Source of the DNA: Streptomyces showdoensis
GTDB taxonomy: Bacteria; Actinomycetota; Actinomycetes; Streptomycetales; Streptomycetaceae
NCBI RefSeq assembly: GCF_039535475.1
Contig: NZ_BAAAXG010000027.1
Span: forward strand, 204,001 to 268,000
Reading direction: 5' to 3'
DNA length: 64,000 bases
Of this stretch, positions 35,389 to 42,551 are shown piece after piece. The first letter of the stretch is position 1, and every line of letters starts with the position of its first letter. Under the pieces are notes generated by a model. That model had not been told where the DNA came from and ran no database searches. It saw nothing but the letters and a program-made list of their open reading frames with translations. A program made the translations under genes and the position numbers.

Positions 35389-36252
35389 ATGACGTACCGG
35401 TCCTGGCAGCCCGAGCGCCGTCGCCGCCGCCGCACCCGCCTGACCCGGCGCGGCCGCCTCGCGCTGCTCCTCGGCGCCGTCCTCGCCGTCGCCGCCGCGA
35501 TCACCGTGCCCCTGCTGCTGGGCGGGGAGGAGCGGCCCGCGCCCGAGAAGCGGCGCACCCTGCTCATCCCGGAGGGCTGGCGGGCCGGAGAGGTGTACGC
35601 GGCCGTCGACCGCTCCCTCGGCCTGCCGCAGGGCACGACCCGCGCGGCCGCCGGGGCCCGGGCCACCGGGCTGGCCCTGCCGCCCGCGGCGGCGGGCAAT
35701 CCGGAGGGCTATCTCTTCCCCGCCACGTATCCGGTGGTGAAGGCCACGACCCCGCAGGGCCTGCTCCGCTACATGGTCGACACGGCGGGCAGGCGCTTCG
35801 CCGGCGAGCGCATCACCGAGGGCGCCCGGCGGCACGGCATGAGCGTCCACCAGACCGTGATCATCGCGAGCATCGTGCAGGCGGAGGCCGACAGCGCGGC
35901 GGACATGGGCAGGGTGGCGCGGGTCGTCTACAACCGGCTCGGCCGGGGCATGGCGCTCCAGATGGACTCCACGATCAACTACGCCCTGGGGCGGGACACC
36001 GTGGACACCACCCACCAGGACACCCGCATCGACAGCCCCTTCAACACCTACGAGCGCCGGGGCCTGCCCCCGTCGCCCATCGGGAACCCGGGCGACGCGG
36101 CGATGACGGCGGCGATCGACCCGGCCGACGGCGACTGGCTCTACTTCGTGACCGTGAAGCCGGGCGACACCCGCTTCACCGCGAACTACGCCGAACACCA
36201 GGCGAACGTCGCCGAGTTCAACGCGCAGCGACGGGCCGCGGGGCGTTCCTGA
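35389..36252 (+). CDS. mltG: endolytic murein transglycosylase, MltG-like
   Basis: YceG/MltG family protein that cuts glycan strands during peptidoglycan synthesis, 287 residues. A cytoplasmic Arg-rich start is followed by one TM segment (about 24-44) and the extracytoplasmic domain. Markers are EGYLFPATY, ASIVQAEA with the likely catalytic Glu166, LQMDSTINYAL, SPFNTY and GLPPSPIGNPG. It lacks the long N-terminal extension of the main streptomycete MltG, so it is probably a second copy. Its 3' end overlaps the convergent monooxygenase gene by 35 bases. Confidence 0.9.
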   Translation: MTYRSWQPERRRRRRTRLTRRGRLALLLGAVLAVAAAITVPLLLGGEERPAPEKRRTLLIPEGWRAGEVYAAVDRSLGLPQGTTRAAAGARATGLALPPAAAGNPEGYLFPATYPVVKATTPQGLLRYMVDTAGRRFAGERITEGARRHGMSVHQTVIIASIVQAEADSAADMGRVARVVYNRLGRGMALQMDSTINYALGRDTVDTTHQDTRIDSPFNTYERRGLPPSPIGNPGDAAMTAAIDPADGDWLYFVTVKPGDTRFTANYAEHQANVAEFNAQRRAAGRS

Positions 36253-37309
36253 GGAGCCGGCCGATCTCGGAGACGGCCGCCCGCCCGGCGCGGTTGGCGC
36301 CGATCGTCGAGGCCGAGGGGCCGTAGCCGACCAGGTGGACGCGCTCGTCGCGGACCGCCCTGGTGCCCTCGACCCGGATGCCGCCGCCCGCCTCGCGCAG
36401 CCGCAGCGGCGCCAGGTGGTCGATCGCGGCCCGGAAGCCGGTCGCCCACAGGAGCACGTCCGCCTCGACCGTCCGCCCGTCGTCCCAGGCCACCCCGGAC
36501 GGGGTGATCCGGTCGAACATGGGCAGCCGGTCCAGGATCCCGCGCTCGCGGGCCGAGCGGACGGCGTCGTTGAGCGGGAGTCCGGTGACCGACACGACGC
36601 TCTGCGGGGGCAGTCCGCGGCGCACCCGGTCCTCGACCAGGGCGACCGCGGCCCGGCCCTCGACCTCGCCGAAGGGGCCCTCGCGGTAGACGGGCTCGCG
36701 CCGTGTGACCCAGGTGGTCTCCGCCGCGACCTCGGCGATCTCCATCAGGTGCTGGGTGCCCGAGGCGCCACCGCCGACGACGATCACCCGCTGCCCGGCG
36801 AAGGCCTCGGGACCGGGGTACTGCGCCGTGTGCAGCTGGCGGCCCCGGAAGGTCTCCTGTCCCGGGTAGCGCGGCCAGAACGGGCGGTCCCAGGTGCCGG
36901 TGGCGTTGATCAGCGCGCGCGTGGAGTACACGCCCTCGGAGGTCTCGACGCGCAGCCGCCCGCCCTCGCCCTCGCGCACCGCCGACACCTCGACCGGGCG
37001 GTGCACCCGCAGGCCGAAGCTCTCCTCGTAGTCGGCGAAGTAGGCGCCGATCACCTCGGCGGAGGGACGGGCGGGATCGGCCCCGGTCAGCTCCTTGCCG
37101 GGCAGGGCGTGCATCCCGTGGACCTTGCCGTAGGTGAGCGAGGGCCAGCGGAACTGCCAGGCGCCGCCCGGGCGCGGGGCGTGGTCGAGGACCACGAAGT
37201 CCCGGTCGGGCTCGAACCCCGAGCGCCGCAGGTGGTAGGCGGCGGACAGGCCCGCCTGCCCGGCGCCGACGACGACCACGTCCACTGCGTGTACCCCGAA
37301 ATCGTTCAC
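36218..37309 (-). CDS. flavin-containing monooxygenase-type FAD/NAD(P) oxidoreductase
   Basis: FMO-like flavoprotein, 363 residues from GTG 37309 (GGTGG upstream; the frame stays open to 37438). FAD motif GAGQAGLSAAYHL near 14-26, GGGASGTQHL near 160-170 for NADPH, and ATGFRAAIDHL near 300. Last gene of a leftward run leader-ssuB'-ssuD-this gene, so it may oxidise an organosulfur compound (inference from position). Its stop lies inside the convergent mltG gene. Confidence 0.85.
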   Translation of the reverse strand: MNDFGVHAVDVVVVGAGQAGLSAAYHLRRSGFEPDRDFVVLDHAPRPGGAWQFRWPSLTYGKVHGMHALPGKELTGADPARPSAEVIGAYFADYEESFGLRVHRPVEVSAVREGEGGRLRVETSEGVYSTRALINATGTWDRPFWPRYPGQETFRGRQLHTAQYPGPEAFAGQRVIVVGGGASGTQHLMEIAEVAAETTWVTRREPVYREGPFGEVEGRAAVALVEDRVRRGLPPQSVVSVTGLPLNDAVRSARERGILDRLPMFDRITPSGVAWDDGRTVEADVLLWATGFRAAIDHLAPLRLREAGGGIRVEGTRAVRDERVHLVGYGPSASTIGANRAGRAAVSEIGRLLRNAPRPVAAR

Positions 37310-37424: not shown

Positions 37425-38642
37425 CTACCGCCCGCCACCGCCCGTCACGAGCAGCGGCGCCCCGCCCGGCGCGGAGGCGGGGCGGCCGTTCGCCGCCGGG
37501 ACGCCCCGCAGCGGCGAGTCGGGGACCGTCGGCAGCAGGCCGCGGGCCGCCAGCTCCGGGGTCACGCCCTCGCCGAACCAGTACGCCTCCTCCAGGTGCG
37601 GATAGCCCGACAGCACGAAGTGCTCGACGCCCAGGTCGTGGTACTCCTCGATCCGGTCGGCCACGTCCCTGTGGCTGCCCACCAGCGCCGTCCCGGCCCC
37701 GCCCCGTACCAGGCCCACGCCCGCCCACAGGTTCGGCGCGATCTCCAGCCGGTCCCGGTCGAGCGTGCCGCCGCCGTGCAGCGCCAGCATCCGCTGCTGG
37801 CCCACCGACTCGCTGCGGCCCAGCGCCGCCTGGGCCGTTGCCACCGTTTCCGGATCGAGGTCGGCGAGCAGCCGCTCGGCCGTCGCCCACGCCTCGCGCG
37901 AGGAGTCGCGGGAGATGGTGTGCAGCCGGATGCCGAAACGCACCTCGCGGCCCCGCGCCTCCGCGAGCCGCCGGATCCAGTCGATCTTCTCCTTCACCTG
38001 CCACGGCGGCTCGCCCCAGGTCAGATAGACGTCCGCGTGCTCGGCGGCGACCGGCCCGGCCGCCGCCGAGGAGCCGCCGAAGAAGATCTCCGGCAGCGGC
38101 TCCGGCGGCAGCGCGGTCAGCCCGCCCTCCACCTGGTAGTGGCCGCCCTCGAAGTCGTACGGCCGCCCGCCCCACACCCCGCGCACCACCCGCAGGAACT
38201 CGGCGGTCCGCTCGTAGCGCAGGTCGTGGTCGAGGAAGTCGCCGAAGCGCCGCTGCTCGGCCGAGTCGCCGCCGGTCACCACGTTGAGCAGCAGCCGGCC
38301 ACGGGTGATCCGCTGGTACGTGGCGGCCATCTGGGCGGCGAGCACGGGGGAGATCGCCCCCGGCCGGAACGCCACCAGGAACTTGAGGCGTTCGGTGTGC
38401 TGGGCGAGGGCGACGGTGGTCAGCCAGGCGTCCTCGCACCAGGTCCCGGTCGGCGTGAGGACCGCCTCGAAGCCCAGCCGCTCGGCCGCCTTGGCGATCT
38501 GCGCCAGATACTCGATGTCCGGGGCCCGCACCCCGCTCGCGGCGCGCGTGCGGCCGATGCCGCCGTCGCCGTACACGTGCCGGTCGACGAGGGTGCGGCC
38601 GTCGCCGCCGGTCGGCAGGAACCAGTGGAGGTGGACGGTCAT
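37425..38642 (-). CDS. ssuD: LLM-class FMNH2-dependent alkanesulfonate monooxygenase
   Basis: Luciferase-like monooxygenase that releases sulfite from alkanesulfonates, 405 residues. It has the family start HWFLPTGGDGR, TGTWCEDAW, RPGAISPVLAAQMAATYQ, NVVTGGDSAEQRRFGDFLDHDLRY (split around 117-140) and FVLSGYPHLEEAYWFGEGV near the C-terminus. A flavin reductase (SsuE-type) is not in the window. Part of a leftward operon behind a cysteine-containing leader peptide, so it is expected to rise in sulfur limitation. Confidence 0.93.
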   Translation of the reverse strand: MTVHLHWFLPTGGDGRTLVDRHVYGDGGIGRTRAASGVRAPDIEYLAQIAKAAERLGFEAVLTPTGTWCEDAWLTTVALAQHTERLKFLVAFRPGAISPVLAAQMAATYQRITRGRLLLNVVTGGDSAEQRRFGDFLDHDLRYERTAEFLRVVRGVWGGRPYDFEGGHYQVEGGLTALPPEPLPEIFFGGSSAAAGPVAAEHADVYLTWGEPPWQVKEKIDWIRRLAEARGREVRFGIRLHTISRDSSREAWATAERLLADLDPETVATAQAALGRSESVGQQRMLALHGGGTLDRDRLEIAPNLWAGVGLVRGGAGTALVGSHRDVADRIEEYHDLGVEHFVLSGYPHLEEAYWFGEGVTPELAARGLLPTVPDSPLRGVPAANGRPASAPGGAPLLVTGGGGR

Positions 38643-38766: not shown

Positions 38767-39387
38767 TCAGGCGGCCTGGGGTACGGGCACGCCCGCCCGC
38801 TCGCCGAGCTCGGCGAGCAGCCGGGTGCGCAGGGCGGCGAGCGCCGGGTCGGCGGGGGAGCGGGGCCGGCCGAGGGCGACCGGCACGTCGTACCCGATGC
38901 CGCCGTCCCGCATCACCAGCACCCGGTCGGCGAGGAGCAGCGCCTCGTCGACCTCGGAGGCGGCCAGGAGCACGGTGCGGCCGCGCCGCCGCGACGCCTC
39001 GCCCACCAGGCGCAGGGCCTTGACCCGGGCCGGAGCGTCGAGCCCCGCGAACGGCTCGTCGAGCAGCAGCAGATCGGACTCCCGCTCCACCGCCCCGGCC
39101 AGCGCGGCGCGTCGGGCGGGCCCCCGCCACACCCTCCGCCACGGCGCCGGGCGCGGCGCCTGGAGGACGACGGCGCGGCGCCGGGGTACGAGCACGGTGC
39201 CGCTGATCTCGCGGTCGAGCCCGGCGAGCGCCCGCAGCAGCGTCGACTTGCCGCAGCCGCTCCGCCCCACCAGTGCGGTGAACTCACCGGCCGGCAGGCT
39301 CAGATCGAGCCCGTCGAGCACGGTGCGCCCGTCGAAGGAGCGGGTCAGACCGCGGACGGTCACGGCCCGGGGAAGGTCGGTCGCCAT
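38767..39387 (-). pseudogene. ssuB: SsuB-like ABC ATPase remnant lacking the signature motif
   Basis: Sulfonate-importer ATPase with an internal loss, 206 residues where about 245 is normal. Walker [10 protein letters not shown] and Walker [13 protein letters not shown] are kept. After [15 protein letters not shown] the sequence jumps to [19 protein letters not shown], so some 35-40 residues including LSGGQ are missing. The H-loop histidine is also gone ([10 protein letters not shown]). The frame is open, so this is an in-frame deletion. No ssuA or ssuC is present nearby; the transporter is probably dead. Confidence 0.8.
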
Positions 39388-39466
39388 GGGCGGCAGCCTT
39401 TCGAAGGTGCGAACGCCGACCCCGCACCACCGGCGGAGGGAAGACGTCGGGAAGACGCGCCGCCGC

Positions 39467-39502
39467 CCGCGGACGCGCACCGCGCAGGCGCCACGTCCGC
39501 GG
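39467..39502 (-). promoter_or_regulatory. stem-loop between leader peptide and ssuB remnant
   Basis: Perfect nine-base inverted repeat CCGCGGACG and CGTCCGCGG with an 18-base loop in the 168-base leader between the cysteine peptide and the ssuB remnant. In attenuator-controlled operons such structures couple to ribosome stalling, but the alternative pairings were not computed here. Confidence 0.4.
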
Positions 39503-39555
39503 CCGTCACCGCGTCGGAAAGGCCCGAGGGGCCGCAGAAAGAGAAGGGGAGGGCG

Positions 39556-39639
39556 TCAGCGGCCGCGACAACACGCGGCGGAGGCCACCCGCAGCAGGTC
39601 GATGTGACCGCGCGTGGTGAGCAGGGCTGTACGCAACAT
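39556..39639 (-). CDS. cysteine-containing leader peptide upstream of the ssu operon
   Basis: Twenty-seven-residue peptide, start ATG 39639 and stop at 39556. It has the form seen upstream of actinobacterial sulfur genes: LLTTRGHIDLLRVASAACC, with a Cys-Cys pair five residues from the end. The ATG lies six bases after a good -10 box, so it is probably leaderless. Starved of cysteine, ribosomes would stall at Cys23-Cys24 and raise expression of the genes behind it (established for mycobacterial polycysteine leaders; inferred here). Confidence 0.85.
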   Translation of the reverse strand: MLRTALLTTRGHIDLLRVASAACCRGR

Positions 39640-39645
39640 GGCGCG

Positions 39646-39675
39646 AACGTAGCGAGCCGTCCCGTACCGGGTCAA
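39646..39675 (-). promoter_or_regulatory. promoter of the leader peptide-ssu operon
   Basis: On the minus strand TTGACC (39675-39670) and TACGTT (39651-39646) are spaced by 18 bases, close to consensus. Transcription would start about at the leader ATG, 39639-39640. Confidence 0.7.
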
Positions 39676-39730
39676 CGGTGTCTCGGAGCGTGGACGCGCG
39701 ATCCCGGCCCGTGAACGGCAGGATGACCCC

Positions 39731-40148
39731 ATGCCCTTCAGCACCACGGTCCTCAGCCTCACCACCGGCTCCACGGAGACCGTCACCGACCTCACCCGCC
39801 ACTGCGAGGACTTCCTCGCCCGCACCGCGCAGGGAGCCGACGGCCTCCTCAACCTCTTCGTCCCCCACGCGACCGCGGGCCTCGCCATCCTGGAGACCGG
39901 TGCCGGCAGCGACCACGACCTCCTCACCGCCCTCCACCACCTGCTCCCCGCCGACGACCGCTGGCAGCACCGCCACGGCTCCCCGGGCCACGGCCGCGAC
40001 CACGTCCTCCCCGCCCTGGTCCCCCCCGCACGCGACCGTGCCGGTCCTCGGCGGCCGCCTGGAGCTCGGCACCTGGCAGTCGATCTGCCTGGTGGACACC
40101 AACCGGGACAATCCCCAGCGGGAGGTCCGGCTGTCGTTCCTCGGGTAG
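39731..40148 (+). pseudogene. YjbQ/UPF0047 family protein, frameshifted as sequenced
   Basis: Secondary thiamine-phosphate synthase-like family (YjbQ, UPF0047), about 138 residues when one base is removed. From ATG 39731 the frame reads MPFSTTVLSL to LPALVPP. At the seven-C run 40021-40027 one extra C shifts it, and the expected end, LELGTWQSICLVDTNRDNP then VRLSFLG, lies in another frame stopping at 40148. Both halves match the family, including PHATAGLAILE and the H-rich RHGSPGHGRDH. Probably a sequence error. Confidence 0.8.
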
Positions 40149-40181
40149 CCGGCCGGCCTCGGACAGCCCGGCATCGGGCTC

Positions 40182-42551
40182 TCACCCGGCCGGGGTGATG
40201 GTCACCTTCACGTGCTTCATGATCGGCTGGTCGCTCTGGGTGCTGTAGTCGTCCAGCGCGCACAGCACGTTCATCTCGGGCATGTAGCCGGCCGCGCAGC
40301 CGCGCGGGATGTCGTACGGGATGGCGAGATAGCCCTTGAGGTAGCGCTCGCTCCCGTCCCGGGCGGTGCTGGTGATGTCGACCGGGCCGAGGTCGGCGAT
40401 GCCGCGCTCGCGCATGTCCGCCCGGTTCATGAAGACCAGCGTGCGCAGGTTCCTGATGCCGCGGTACCGGTCGTTGCCGGAGTAGATCGTGGTGTTCCAC
40501 TGGTCGTGCGAGCGCATCGTGCCCAGCGCCAGGGTGCCGGGGGCGGGCACCACGTCCGGCAGGGCGGCGGCGGAGAACTCGGCGCGTCCGGAAGGGGTCA
40601 GGAAGACCAGCTCGCGGGCGGGCTGCCGGATGCGGAAGCCGAGCGGCAGCCGCACCCGCCGGTTGAAGTCCTCGAAGCCGTCGAGCGCGCGGGCCATCGT
40701 GTCCCGGATGCGGTCGTAGTCCTCGACGTACCACTCCCACGGGGTGGCGCTGTCGGGGAGCGCGGCGCGGGCCATGCCGGCGATGATGGCCGGTTCGGAG
40801 AGCAGGTGCGGCGACGCGGGCTTCTTCATGCCGATCGAGAGGTGCACCATGCTCATCGAGTCCTCGACCGAGGTGGACTGGACGCCCTTGCGCTGGTGGT
40901 CCTTCTCGGTCCGGCCGAGGCAGGGCAGGATCAACGCCCGCCGCCCGTGCACGACATGGCTGCGGTTCAGCTTGGTGCTCACCTGCACGGTGAGCTCGCA
41001 GGCCCGCAAGGCCTCGTACGTGTACGGGGTGTCGGGCGCGGCCAGGGCGAAGTTGCCGCCCATGCCGACGAAGACCCGCACGTCGCCGCGGTGCATCGCC
41101 TTGATGGTGCGCACGGTGTCCAGGCCGTGGTCCCGGGGCGGGTCGATCGCGCAGGCCTCGGCGAGCCGGTCCAGGAACTCCTCGCTCGGACGGTGGTCGA
41201 TGCCGCAGGTGCGGTTGCCCTGCACGTTGCTGTGCCCGCGCACGGGGGAGGGGCCCGCGCCCTCCCGGCCGAGGTTGCCGCGGAGCAGCAGCAGGTTGAC
41301 GATCTCCCGCACCGTGTCGACGCCGTGCTCGTGCTGGGTGACGCCGAGGCACCAGCTGACGATGGAGCGGTCGGCCTCGCCGTACACCCTGGCGGCCTTC
41401 AGGATGTCGGCCCGGCTCAGACCGGACTGGGTCTCCAGCTCCTCCCAGGGCGTGGCCTCGCACAGCGCGCGGTACTCCTCGAAGCCGGCGGTGTACCGCT
41501 CGATGAACTCCCGGTCCAGGGCCTTCGGGTCCGTGACCGACTGCTCCAGGACCGCCTTCGCCATGCCGCGCAGGAGCGCCATGTCGCCGCCGATGCGCGG
41601 CTGGAGGTCGAGGGTGCCGGTCCGGGTCGAGCGGAAGGTGGCCATGTCCTTGAAGTCGTGCGGGATGATCGTCCGCGTCGCGGCCGCCTCGACGAGCGGG
41701 TTGACGTGCACGATCTGCGCGCCCCGGTGGTACGCCTCGGCGAGGGCGGTCAGCATCCGGGGCGCGTTGGAGGCCGCGTTGACCCCCAGGATGAACAGCG
41801 CGTCGGCGCTCTCCCAGTCCTTCAGGTCGACGGTGCCCTTGCCGGTGCCCAGGGAGGCCTGCAGCGCCCGGCCGCTGGCCTCGTGGCACATGTTCGAGCA
41901 GTCGGGCAGGTTGTTCGTGCCGAGCTCGCGGGCCATCAGCTGGTAGAGGAAGGTGGCCTCGTTGCCGAGCCGGCCCGAGGTGTAGAAGGAGGCCCGGTTC
42001 GGGTCGTCGAGCGCGCGCAGGGCACCGCCGACGAGCGCGAAGGCGTCCTTCCAGGTGATGGGGACGTAGTGGTCCGACTCCGGGTCGTAGACCATCGGCT
42101 CGGTCAGCCGGCCCTGGTTCTCCAGGTCGTAGTCGGTCCATCCGGCCAGCTCGGTCACCGTGTGGGCGGCGAAGAACGCGCGGTCCACCCGCTTCCGGGT
42201 CATCTCCCAGGTGACGTGCTTGATGCCGTTCTCGCAGATGTCGAGGTGCAGCCCCTTGGTGTCGTCCGGCCAGGCGCAGCCCGGGCAGTCGAAGCCGGTG
42301 TTCTCGTGGTTCATCTTCATGATCGCCCGGGGCCCGTCCAAGGGGAGGGCTCCCTCGCGCACCATGAACCGGGTCACGCTGTCCGCCGCGCCCCAGCCCG
42401 CGGCGGGGTGGTGGTAGGGGCGGAACTCCGGCTTCCCCTCGGGGACGGGTCCCACGCGGGGTTCGAGGGACTCCCGCGCTTCCGGGGATCGCTTCGATGC
42501 GGGGGATCCCTCGGGTTCCGGGGATCGCCGCTCGCCCTTGTCGACGCTCAT
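40182..42551 (-). CDS. FdhF/YdeP-family molybdopterin oxidoreductase
   Basis: Mo-bis-MGD enzyme of the YdeP group, 789 residues from ATG 42551. N-terminal cysteines Cys89 and Cys92 (CPGCAWPD) and Cys106 (DICENG) recall the family's cluster site. It has GRLGNEATFL, NMCHEASGRAL with the likely metal-ligand Cys, GANAAS-like LGVNAASNAP and a C-terminal MopB domain. Related proteins are linked to formate or acid resistance, but substrates are not proven. No fdhD is visible nearby. A low-complexity, charge-repeat N-terminus (SPEPEGSPASKRSPEARES) precedes the domain. Confidence 0.88.
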   Translation of the reverse strand: MSVDKGERRSPEPEGSPASKRSPEARESLEPRVGPVPEGKPEFRPYHHPAAGWGAADSVTRFMVREGALPLDGPRAIMKMNHENTGFDCPGCAWPDDTKGLHLDICENGIKHVTWEMTRKRVDRAFFAAHTVTELAGWTDYDLENQGRLTEPMVYDPESDHYVPITWKDAFALVGGALRALDDPNRASFYTSGRLGNEATFLYQLMARELGTNNLPDCSNMCHEASGRALQASLGTGKGTVDLKDWESADALFILGVNAASNAPRMLTALAEAYHRGAQIVHVNPLVEAAATRTIIPHDFKDMATFRSTRTGTLDLQPRIGGDMALLRGMAKAVLEQSVTDPKALDREFIERYTAGFEEYRALCEATPWEELETQSGLSRADILKAARVYGEADRSIVSWCLGVTQHEHGVDTVREIVNLLLLRGNLGREGAGPSPVRGHSNVQGNRTCGIDHRPSEEFLDRLAEACAIDPPRDHGLDTVRTIKAMHRGDVRVFVGMGGNFALAAPDTPYTYEALRACELTVQVSTKLNRSHVVHGRRALILPCLGRTEKDHQRKGVQSTSVEDSMSMVHLSIGMKKPASPHLLSEPAIIAGMARAALPDSATPWEWYVEDYDRIRDTMARALDGFEDFNRRVRLPLGFRIRQPARELVFLTPSGRAEFSAAALPDVVPAPGTLALGTMRSHDQWNTTIYSGNDRYRGIRNLRTLVFMNRADMRERGIADLGPVDITSTARDGSERYLKGYLAIPYDIPRGCAAGYMPEMNVLCALDDYSTQSDQPIMKHVKVTITPAG

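Follow-up and report, generated by a model that had tools for sequence, protein, structure and literature searches.

A putative cysteine-responsive leader peptide with a conserved UGU codon upstream of an ssu operon in Streptomyces showdoensis

Organization of the locus

The window analysed here is a stretch of 64,000 nt from Streptomyces showdoensis (contig NZ_BAAAXG010000027.1, positions 204,001 to 268,000). On its minus strand, a short ORF preceded by a putative promoter is followed by an untranslated spacer and by three genes related to the use of organic sulfur compounds (Table 1).

Table 1. Features of the leader and of the operon behind it, in positions of the window
Feature	Position	Strand	Remarks
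GAGAC just upstream of the -35 hexamer	39680..39684	-	GAGA[CT] in 55/58 ssu leaders, at -60 to -31 relative to the ATG
-35 hexamer TTGACC	39670..39675	-	TTGAC in 57/58 ssu-locus leaders, 17–18 nt spacer
-10 hexamer TACGTT (TAnnnT)	39646..39651	-	6 nt before ATG; TAnnnT 6–7 nt before ATG in 58/58
Leader peptide ORF	39556..39639	-	27 codons plus TGA; encodes MLRTALLTTRGHIDLLRVASAACCRGR; above the NF042934 cut-off; leader in 57/60 orthologous loci
Conserved 14-residue motif RGHIDLLRVASAAC	39571..39612	-	Peptide residues R10–C23
Cys codon TGT (C23), candidate sensor codon	39571..39573	-	Kept across the family
Second Cys codon TGT (C24)	39568..39570	-	Not conserved; Cys there in 14/58 ssu leaders
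Untranslated spacer	39388..39555	-	168 nt; first 40 nt C 21, U 12, G 7, A 0
9-bp inverted repeat	39467..39502	-	Hairpin of the sequence-only reading; probably chance
Shine-Dalgarno GAAAGG of ssuB'	39397..39402	-	9 nt before ATG
ssuB', SsuB-type ATPase	38767..39387	-	Start by Shine-Dalgarno and orthologues; aligned with four orthologues
ssuD, alkanesulfonate monooxygenase family	37425..38642	-	NF001939 464.8 bits (cut-off 510); Bac_luciferase PF00296
FMO/ArsO-like flavoprotein, start uncertain	36218..37306	-	NF040505 325 bits (cut-off 425); Pyr_redox_3

An earlier sequence-only reading of the locus had placed ssuB', ssuD and an FMO gene downstream of the leader, and this assignment was confirmed: the genes encode an SsuB-type ATPase, SsuD and an FMO-type flavoprotein, all on the same strand. 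The prime on ssuB was deserved as well. Alignment with the four orthologues revealed an in-frame internal gap of 37 residues, with the signature motif gone and the H-loop His replaced, and no permease or binding-protein gene neighbours ssuB' in the window. It appears to be what is left of a decayed sulfonate transporter in an operon that has otherwise been kept.

Because ssuB' carries this deletion, a search for orthologues based on it (E 1e-45, 295 genomes) returned the window alone, and orthologues were found by an SsuD search instead. Sixty orthologous ssuD loci, all with 81–91 % identity, were hand-picked among the matches listed. Only three are without the leader; L126 ends at a contig edge, and L128 and L167 are also without ssuB. 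In L113, L114 and L116, for example, the leader is followed by genes for a permease, an ATPase and a binding protein, then by ssuD and usually an FMO gene. In L144, L148 and L155 ssuB was not found, and the leader is located directly before ssuD at distances of 122, 139 and 71 nt, respectively. The leader would thus seem to outlive the genes formerly beside it, and its persistence after the loss of these neighbours argues for an action in cis on whatever follows.

The window peptide matches the NCBIfam family NF042934, ‘putative leader peptide’ (cis_reg_atten), with 30.8 bits against a cut-off of 27. It scores below the cut-off of 45 for both Cys-rich leader families, NF042936 (Ms4527A; 21.3 bits) and NF042933 (Ms5788A; 13.9 bits), and the leader locus is without an Rfam match at gathering scores. 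The 27-residue ORF had been correctly recognized, but its C-terminus had been given as ASAACC, whereas the peptide ends in ASAACCRGR. The designation ‘polycysteine’ had to be given up. The window peptide has no run of Cys codons, only two adjacent ones; among the 58 ssu-locus leaders (the 57 orthologues and the window) just 14 have an adjacent second Cys, and another count of 14 applies to those with a single Cys codon. To judge from the sequences, what is conserved in the ssu-locus leaders is the 14-residue peptide motif and one UGU codon.

Beside the leader lies a divergent YjbQ/UPF0047-type gene, seemingly split over two frames (39731–40198 and 39678–40148, both on the plus strand). Its Pfam match covers 1–79 of 117 residues, and a plausible remainder is found in another frame near a C run; the gene seems to be either a pseudogene or the product of a sequencing error. 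Elsewhere in the window, positions 865–1156 of the minus strand match Rfam RF02514 (5_ureB_sRNA) with 58.2 bits (gathering score 40).

Promoter and leaderless geometry

The putative promoter of the window consists of TTGACC, an 18 nt spacer and TACGTT, followed by 6 nt to the leader ATG. The full set of TTGAC, a 17–18 nt spacer, TAnnnT and 6–7 nt to the ATG recurs in 57 of the 58 ssu-locus leaders. Across the family, TAnnnT is located 5–8 nt before some in-frame ATG or GTG in 76/148 members, several candidate starts being allowed per leader, compared with 143 of the 22,892 start codons taken singly in these loci. The promoter had been called ‘near-consensus’, which is true of the actinobacterial TAnnnT form but not of the E. 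coli sigma-70 consensus, a scan for which found no promoter between 38600 and 39900. Promoters of S. lividans have the form nTGACn/TAnnnT, and 17 % of its transcripts are leaderless, according to the available part of PMC8079986. The predicted geometry of the window promoter fits both.

Family distribution and genomic context

Twelve members of the NF042934 family were counted in the host genome at E 0.01, of which 11 precede same-strand genes with known or plausible roles in sulfur metabolism. Apart from the ssuB'/ssuD/FMO locus of the window, members are located before a cysteine synthase (TIGR01136, above cut-off) with a sulfur carrier; a sulfite/nitrite-type reductase with a PAPS-reductase-family protein; a sulfurtransferase; a cysteine dioxygenase with a rhodanese; a sulfatase; a transporter comprising NMT1-type binding proteins, a BPD permease and an ABC ATPase; an LLM monooxygenase; a flavin reductase; a 2OG-Fe(II) oxygenase; and a peptide/glutathione-type binding protein. 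These gene names are approximate, as many of the NCBIfam matches are below the curated cut-offs. The twelfth member, L002 (G000:C10:67712-67771), is without the final Cys and has no same-strand gene within 4.6 kb that passes the ORF filter; it is probably a degenerate member of the family.

The leader family is present in all 61 genomes sampled from the genus, with 4 to 16 loci per genome, and is absent from the 14 control genomes. Within the class it was found in 197/296 genomes and 72/105 genera. In an even sample of the phylum, 19 of 246 genomes had a match; 18 of these belong to the same class, and the remaining match (L190) is not a leader. The leaders analysed below are the best-scoring loci together with 60 hand-picked places outside the genus, and are thus a non-random set with shared ancestry. 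The central claim of the sequence-only reading, a leaderless cysteine leader peptide before an organosulfur operon, is well supported: the peptide belongs to the family, the promoter has the expected geometry, the leader is conserved, and sulfur-related genes follow its paralogues.

Conservation of the UGU codon

The conserved Cys (C13 of the motif, C23 of the window peptide) is encoded by TGT in 173 of the 176 family members having Cys there, a count inflated by near relatives; of the 80 distinct 14-residue motifs, 79 have TGT throughout. The total is made up of 147/148 leaders found by pattern, 25/25 further leaders found via NF042936, and 1/3 that the pattern missed. The leaders derived from NF042936 numbered 27, two of them without this Cys, and include one duplicate sequence that is still within the 176. 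Left out of the count were L007, L010 and L190, none of which is a leader, as well as identical sequences and three leaders without the conserved Cys (L002, L300 and L312). Among the ssu leaders, TGT is found at C23 in 57/58; the remaining one, in L115, has TAT (Tyr) at this place, and its operon is still kept.

TGT is otherwise the less used codon. It accounts for 157/961 (16 %) of the Cys codons in long, codon-biased ORFs from these loci, and the Cys codons counted in the orthologues' ssuD are TGC in all 62 cases. Other Cys codons in the same peptides are TGT in 16/142 before the conserved place and in 38/95 after it. TGC is found at the conserved place in L252, L187 and L189. In L187 and L189, which have Cys runs, a TGT is located two codons earlier, possibly a shift of the sensor codon.

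An isoacceptor effect was rejected as a cause of the UGU preference. The host genome has 69 tRNA places, of which ARAGORN assigns 68 (a weak place, C26:1471511, is without assignment); the sole Cys anticodon among these 68 is GCA, carried by two genes. UGU and UGC therefore share one anticodon, UGU being read by wobble. In local folds, the third base of the conserved codon is not consistently paired, and not consistently open either. UGU may be kept for slower, or more charging-sensitive, decoding.

Selection on the peptide

Across the family the motif R-x-[HA]-[VI]-D-L-x-R-x(5)-C keeps its residues, and most of its codons are variable. In the 148 leaders with a final Cys, R0 and R7 are Arg throughout, the search pattern having allowed Arg, Lys or Gln at these places, and place 5 (L5) is occupied by Leu in 147. 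The third residue is either His or Ala, and the Cys follows at a constant distance. Asp at place 4 was required by the pattern, and the three real leaders that the pattern missed also carry Asp at 4 and residues of the Arg/Lys/Gln type at 0 and 7. The motif Arg codons (CGC, CGG, CGT, AGG, CGA) are used near background, as are those of His at the third place (CAC/CAT 85/15, the same as background). There are exceptions to this freedom: Ser10 is AGC in 80/94 family leaders against a background of 24 %, and Ala2 is GCA in 21/48 against 5 %. Since no single synonymous step leads from AGC to TCN, the bias at Ser10 may be due to descent. On the whole, selection appears to act on residues.

RNA structure inside the leader ORF was dropped as a candidate. 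RNAalifold on 42 distinct 84 nt leaders found almost no covariation, and folding energies of the leaders match those of synonymous recodings (mean z -0.14, n=42, with codon weights approximated). The near-fixed synonymous codons of the ssu leaders are therefore explained by neither covariation nor folding.

Four-fold sites in the ssu leaders are nevertheless far more fixed than those of ssuD (the major base has a mean share of 0.917 over 12 columns in the leaders vs 0.693 over 185 columns), and together with the family-wide codon bias in a few motif columns this is what would be expected of a conserved DNA operator or RNA element in which coding is incidental; the GAGA[CT] element and the near-fixed synonymous sites could each mark a candidate regulator-binding site. 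Such an element is an improbable account of the leader as a whole, as residues are constant across operons while most codons vary, and there is hardly any covariation and no excess folding. A functionless chance ORF, of the kind in which GC-rich DNA abounds, deserves practically no credence, being contradicted by conservation: the family match, a leader in 57/60 orthologous loci and a fixed promoter distance. A rival of more weight is pure codon counting: the leader would be a cysteine attenuator of the classical type that depends on its Cys codon alone, the remaining peptide having been inherited by descent. The regulatory logic would then be the same as in known attenuators, and further Cys codons are indeed common in members, the later ones being enriched in TGT as well (38/95). 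However, members from different operons and genera have R0, L5 and R7 in common but encode them with varying codons, which argues for selection on the peptide itself, and codon counting alone is held to be a substantial minority possibility. In a ribosome whose A site holds the Cys codon, the stretch R0–R7 would occupy the upper exit tunnel, as in arrest peptides.

Spacer and output step

The sequence-only reading had also pointed to a nine-base hairpin between leader and ssuB'. The repeat exists, but a regulatory role for it is unlikely, and it is probably due to chance: a 9-bp repeat arises in 158/2000 dinucleotide shuffles of the spacer, and just 3/42 orthologous spacers have one. Leader plus spacer is scarcely more stable in its fold than shuffled sequence (z -0.81, with 44/200 shuffles equally good), and a search of the window for intrinsic terminator-like sites found 0. 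Spacers are 71–404 nt long in the 43/58 loci with the first gene placed. Because the spacer varies in both length and sequence between loci, neither of which is conserved, no defined terminator or anti-structure was found.

The composition of the spacer is more constant. In the 80 nt after the leader stop, C exceeds G in 142/148 family members and 53/58 ssu leaders. The mean post-stop difference C-G is 0.157 in the family vs 0.028 in random windows; in the ssu loci it is 0.20 vs 0.076 upstream of other genes in the same loci (n=58), where a mild excess of C over G is thus also seen. The first 40 nt of the window spacer may serve as a Rho-loading stretch. The C-rich spacer makes Rho-dependent termination a likelier output than Shine-Dalgarno release; we give a Rho-type output an even chance, as against a more tentative one for control at the Shine-Dalgarno sequence.

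The specific form of such control reported for Mycobacterium smegmatis, in which a ribosome at the Cys codon blocks a structure that hides the Shine-Dalgarno sequence of the first gene, is rather unlikely here. For relatives in M. smegmatis, translation attenuation has been reported as the mode of regulation (PMC13236596, as far as its available part goes), and Shine-Dalgarno sequences behind the leaders are indeed less open in the models (mean unpaired 0.123, n=43) than those of controls (0.374, n=42, unmatched for Shine-Dalgarno type). This occlusion is, however, mostly a matter of composition (0.136 observed, 0.193 shuffled, p 0.003), with no common pairing partner. In thermodynamic models a ribosome stalled at C23 changes the exposure of the Shine-Dalgarno sequence by >0.2 in 0/43 loci, so that folding lends no support to its release by a stalled ribosome; exposure of the start codon moves both ways (means 0.453 and 0.443), and spacers reach 404 nt. 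Thermodynamic folding alone is insufficient to decide between Rho and translation attenuation.

Proposed mechanism

From features that are directly seen (the ORF, the promoter geometry, the conserved peptide, a near-invariant UGU, association with sulfur genes and a C-rich spacer) we infer a cis-acting leader-peptide attenuator of the NF042934 family. In this probable scheme, cysteine-responsive stalling at UGU would act through the C-rich spacer, most likely via Rho, on the ssu operon. Taken by itself, cysteine-responsive stalling is very likely; that the stalling is assisted by the peptide is an evenly balanced proposition.

The predicted 5' end lies at or next to the AUG, and the leader would be translated from a leaderless mRNA. 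Having made the peptide stretch RGHIDLLRVASAA, the ribosome would meet the UGU Cys codon. When Cys-tRNA is plentiful the ribosome would pass UGU and terminate at UGA, leaving the C-rich spacer free, and the operon would be turned off, most likely via loading of Rho. When Cys-tRNA is scarce the predicted response is of the opposite sign: the ribosome would halt at UGU, with both the nascent chain in the exit tunnel and slow G-U wobble decoding contributing. The halted ribosome would shield the spacer from Rho, allowing ssuB', ssuD and the FMO gene to be transcribed and sulfonate sulfur to be mobilised.

A bolder generalization, offered tentatively, is that these leaders are throughout the class nascent-chain-assisted arrest peptides and not counters of Cys codons. 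A UGU-locked Cys would be held at a fixed distance from R-x-[HA]-[VI]-D-L-x-R, wobble reading (G-U) by the GCA tRNA would make a more sensitive reporter of charging, and the 4 to 16 loci of a genome would be coordinated. If the proposed attenuator is real, a single synonymous position (UGU/UGC) could be employed to test codon choice as the sole setter of sensitivity, as one anticodon reads both codons, and a single Arg-to-Ala change would test the help of the peptide. The genus would gain a cysteine regulon defined by the ribosome, together with a rule for finding its members in genomes.

Comparison with known systems

The window peptide is above the curated cut-off of NF042934, which provides a family name alone and states neither a mechanism nor a codon rule. 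Polycysteine leaderless short ORFs of mycobacteria have reportedly been described by Canestrari et al. 2020, and we take NF042933 and NF042936 to be the families of these ORFs. The leader is a member of the named family NF042934 and a variant of the mycobacterial polycysteine attenuators. It has a predicted leaderless geometry and cysteine codons in common with them, as far as these can be compared from partial sources, and the Cys-run leaders found here bear the same R-x-[HA]-[VI]-D-L-x-R-x(5)-C motif. The mycobacterial leaders have Cys runs, whereas here one Cys is conserved at a fixed place; the ribosome-dependent Shine-Dalgarno release of the former likewise has no sign in the models of the latter (0/43).

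Cys leaders have also been described from Mycobacterium, Propionibacterium and Bifidobacterium. These short ORFs have runs of Cys codons close to the stop and are not accompanied by a conserved terminator hairpin; pyrimidine-rich motifs were suggested, weakly, for Rho in mycobacteria (Seliverstov 2005, PMC1262725, available part). The window leader shares with them Cys codons near the stop, the lack of a terminator hairpin and a pyrimidine-rich stretch. It differs from their Cys runs, and the available part of PMC1262725 gives no Streptomyces cys leader, peptide motif or codon rule. The uORFC-8-2 motif before cysS in Rhodobacterales is likewise predicted to act in cysteine attenuation by a short ORF; in the available part of PMC8632094 it has two tandem Cys codons, mostly UGC, and an intrinsic terminator, whereas the window family has one conserved Cys, UGU, and no terminator was found in the window.

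An intrinsic terminator between leader and gene, the mark of the classical terminator/antiterminator attenuator, was not found in the window. Ribosome arrest peptides are alike in having conserved residues (here R0, L5 and R7) at a fixed distance from the critical codon (C13). Their freedom at synonymous sites is shared overall, with the qualification that some columns are codon-biased and that D4 is imposed by the pattern. In TnaC of E. coli, peptide-dependent stalling masks a Rho site after the leader stop in response to free tryptophan. The likeness to TnaC consists of a putative stalling peptide and a C-rich, G-poor stretch after the stop; here the sensor would be a Cys codon, and Rho the presumed output.

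Neither the UGU rule nor a Streptomyces member of the Cys leader family was found reported in the parts of open-licence papers that were consulted. The locus thus represents a known kind of attenuator, and its new part, as far as the open-licence papers go, is the near-invariant UGU together with the peptide motif.
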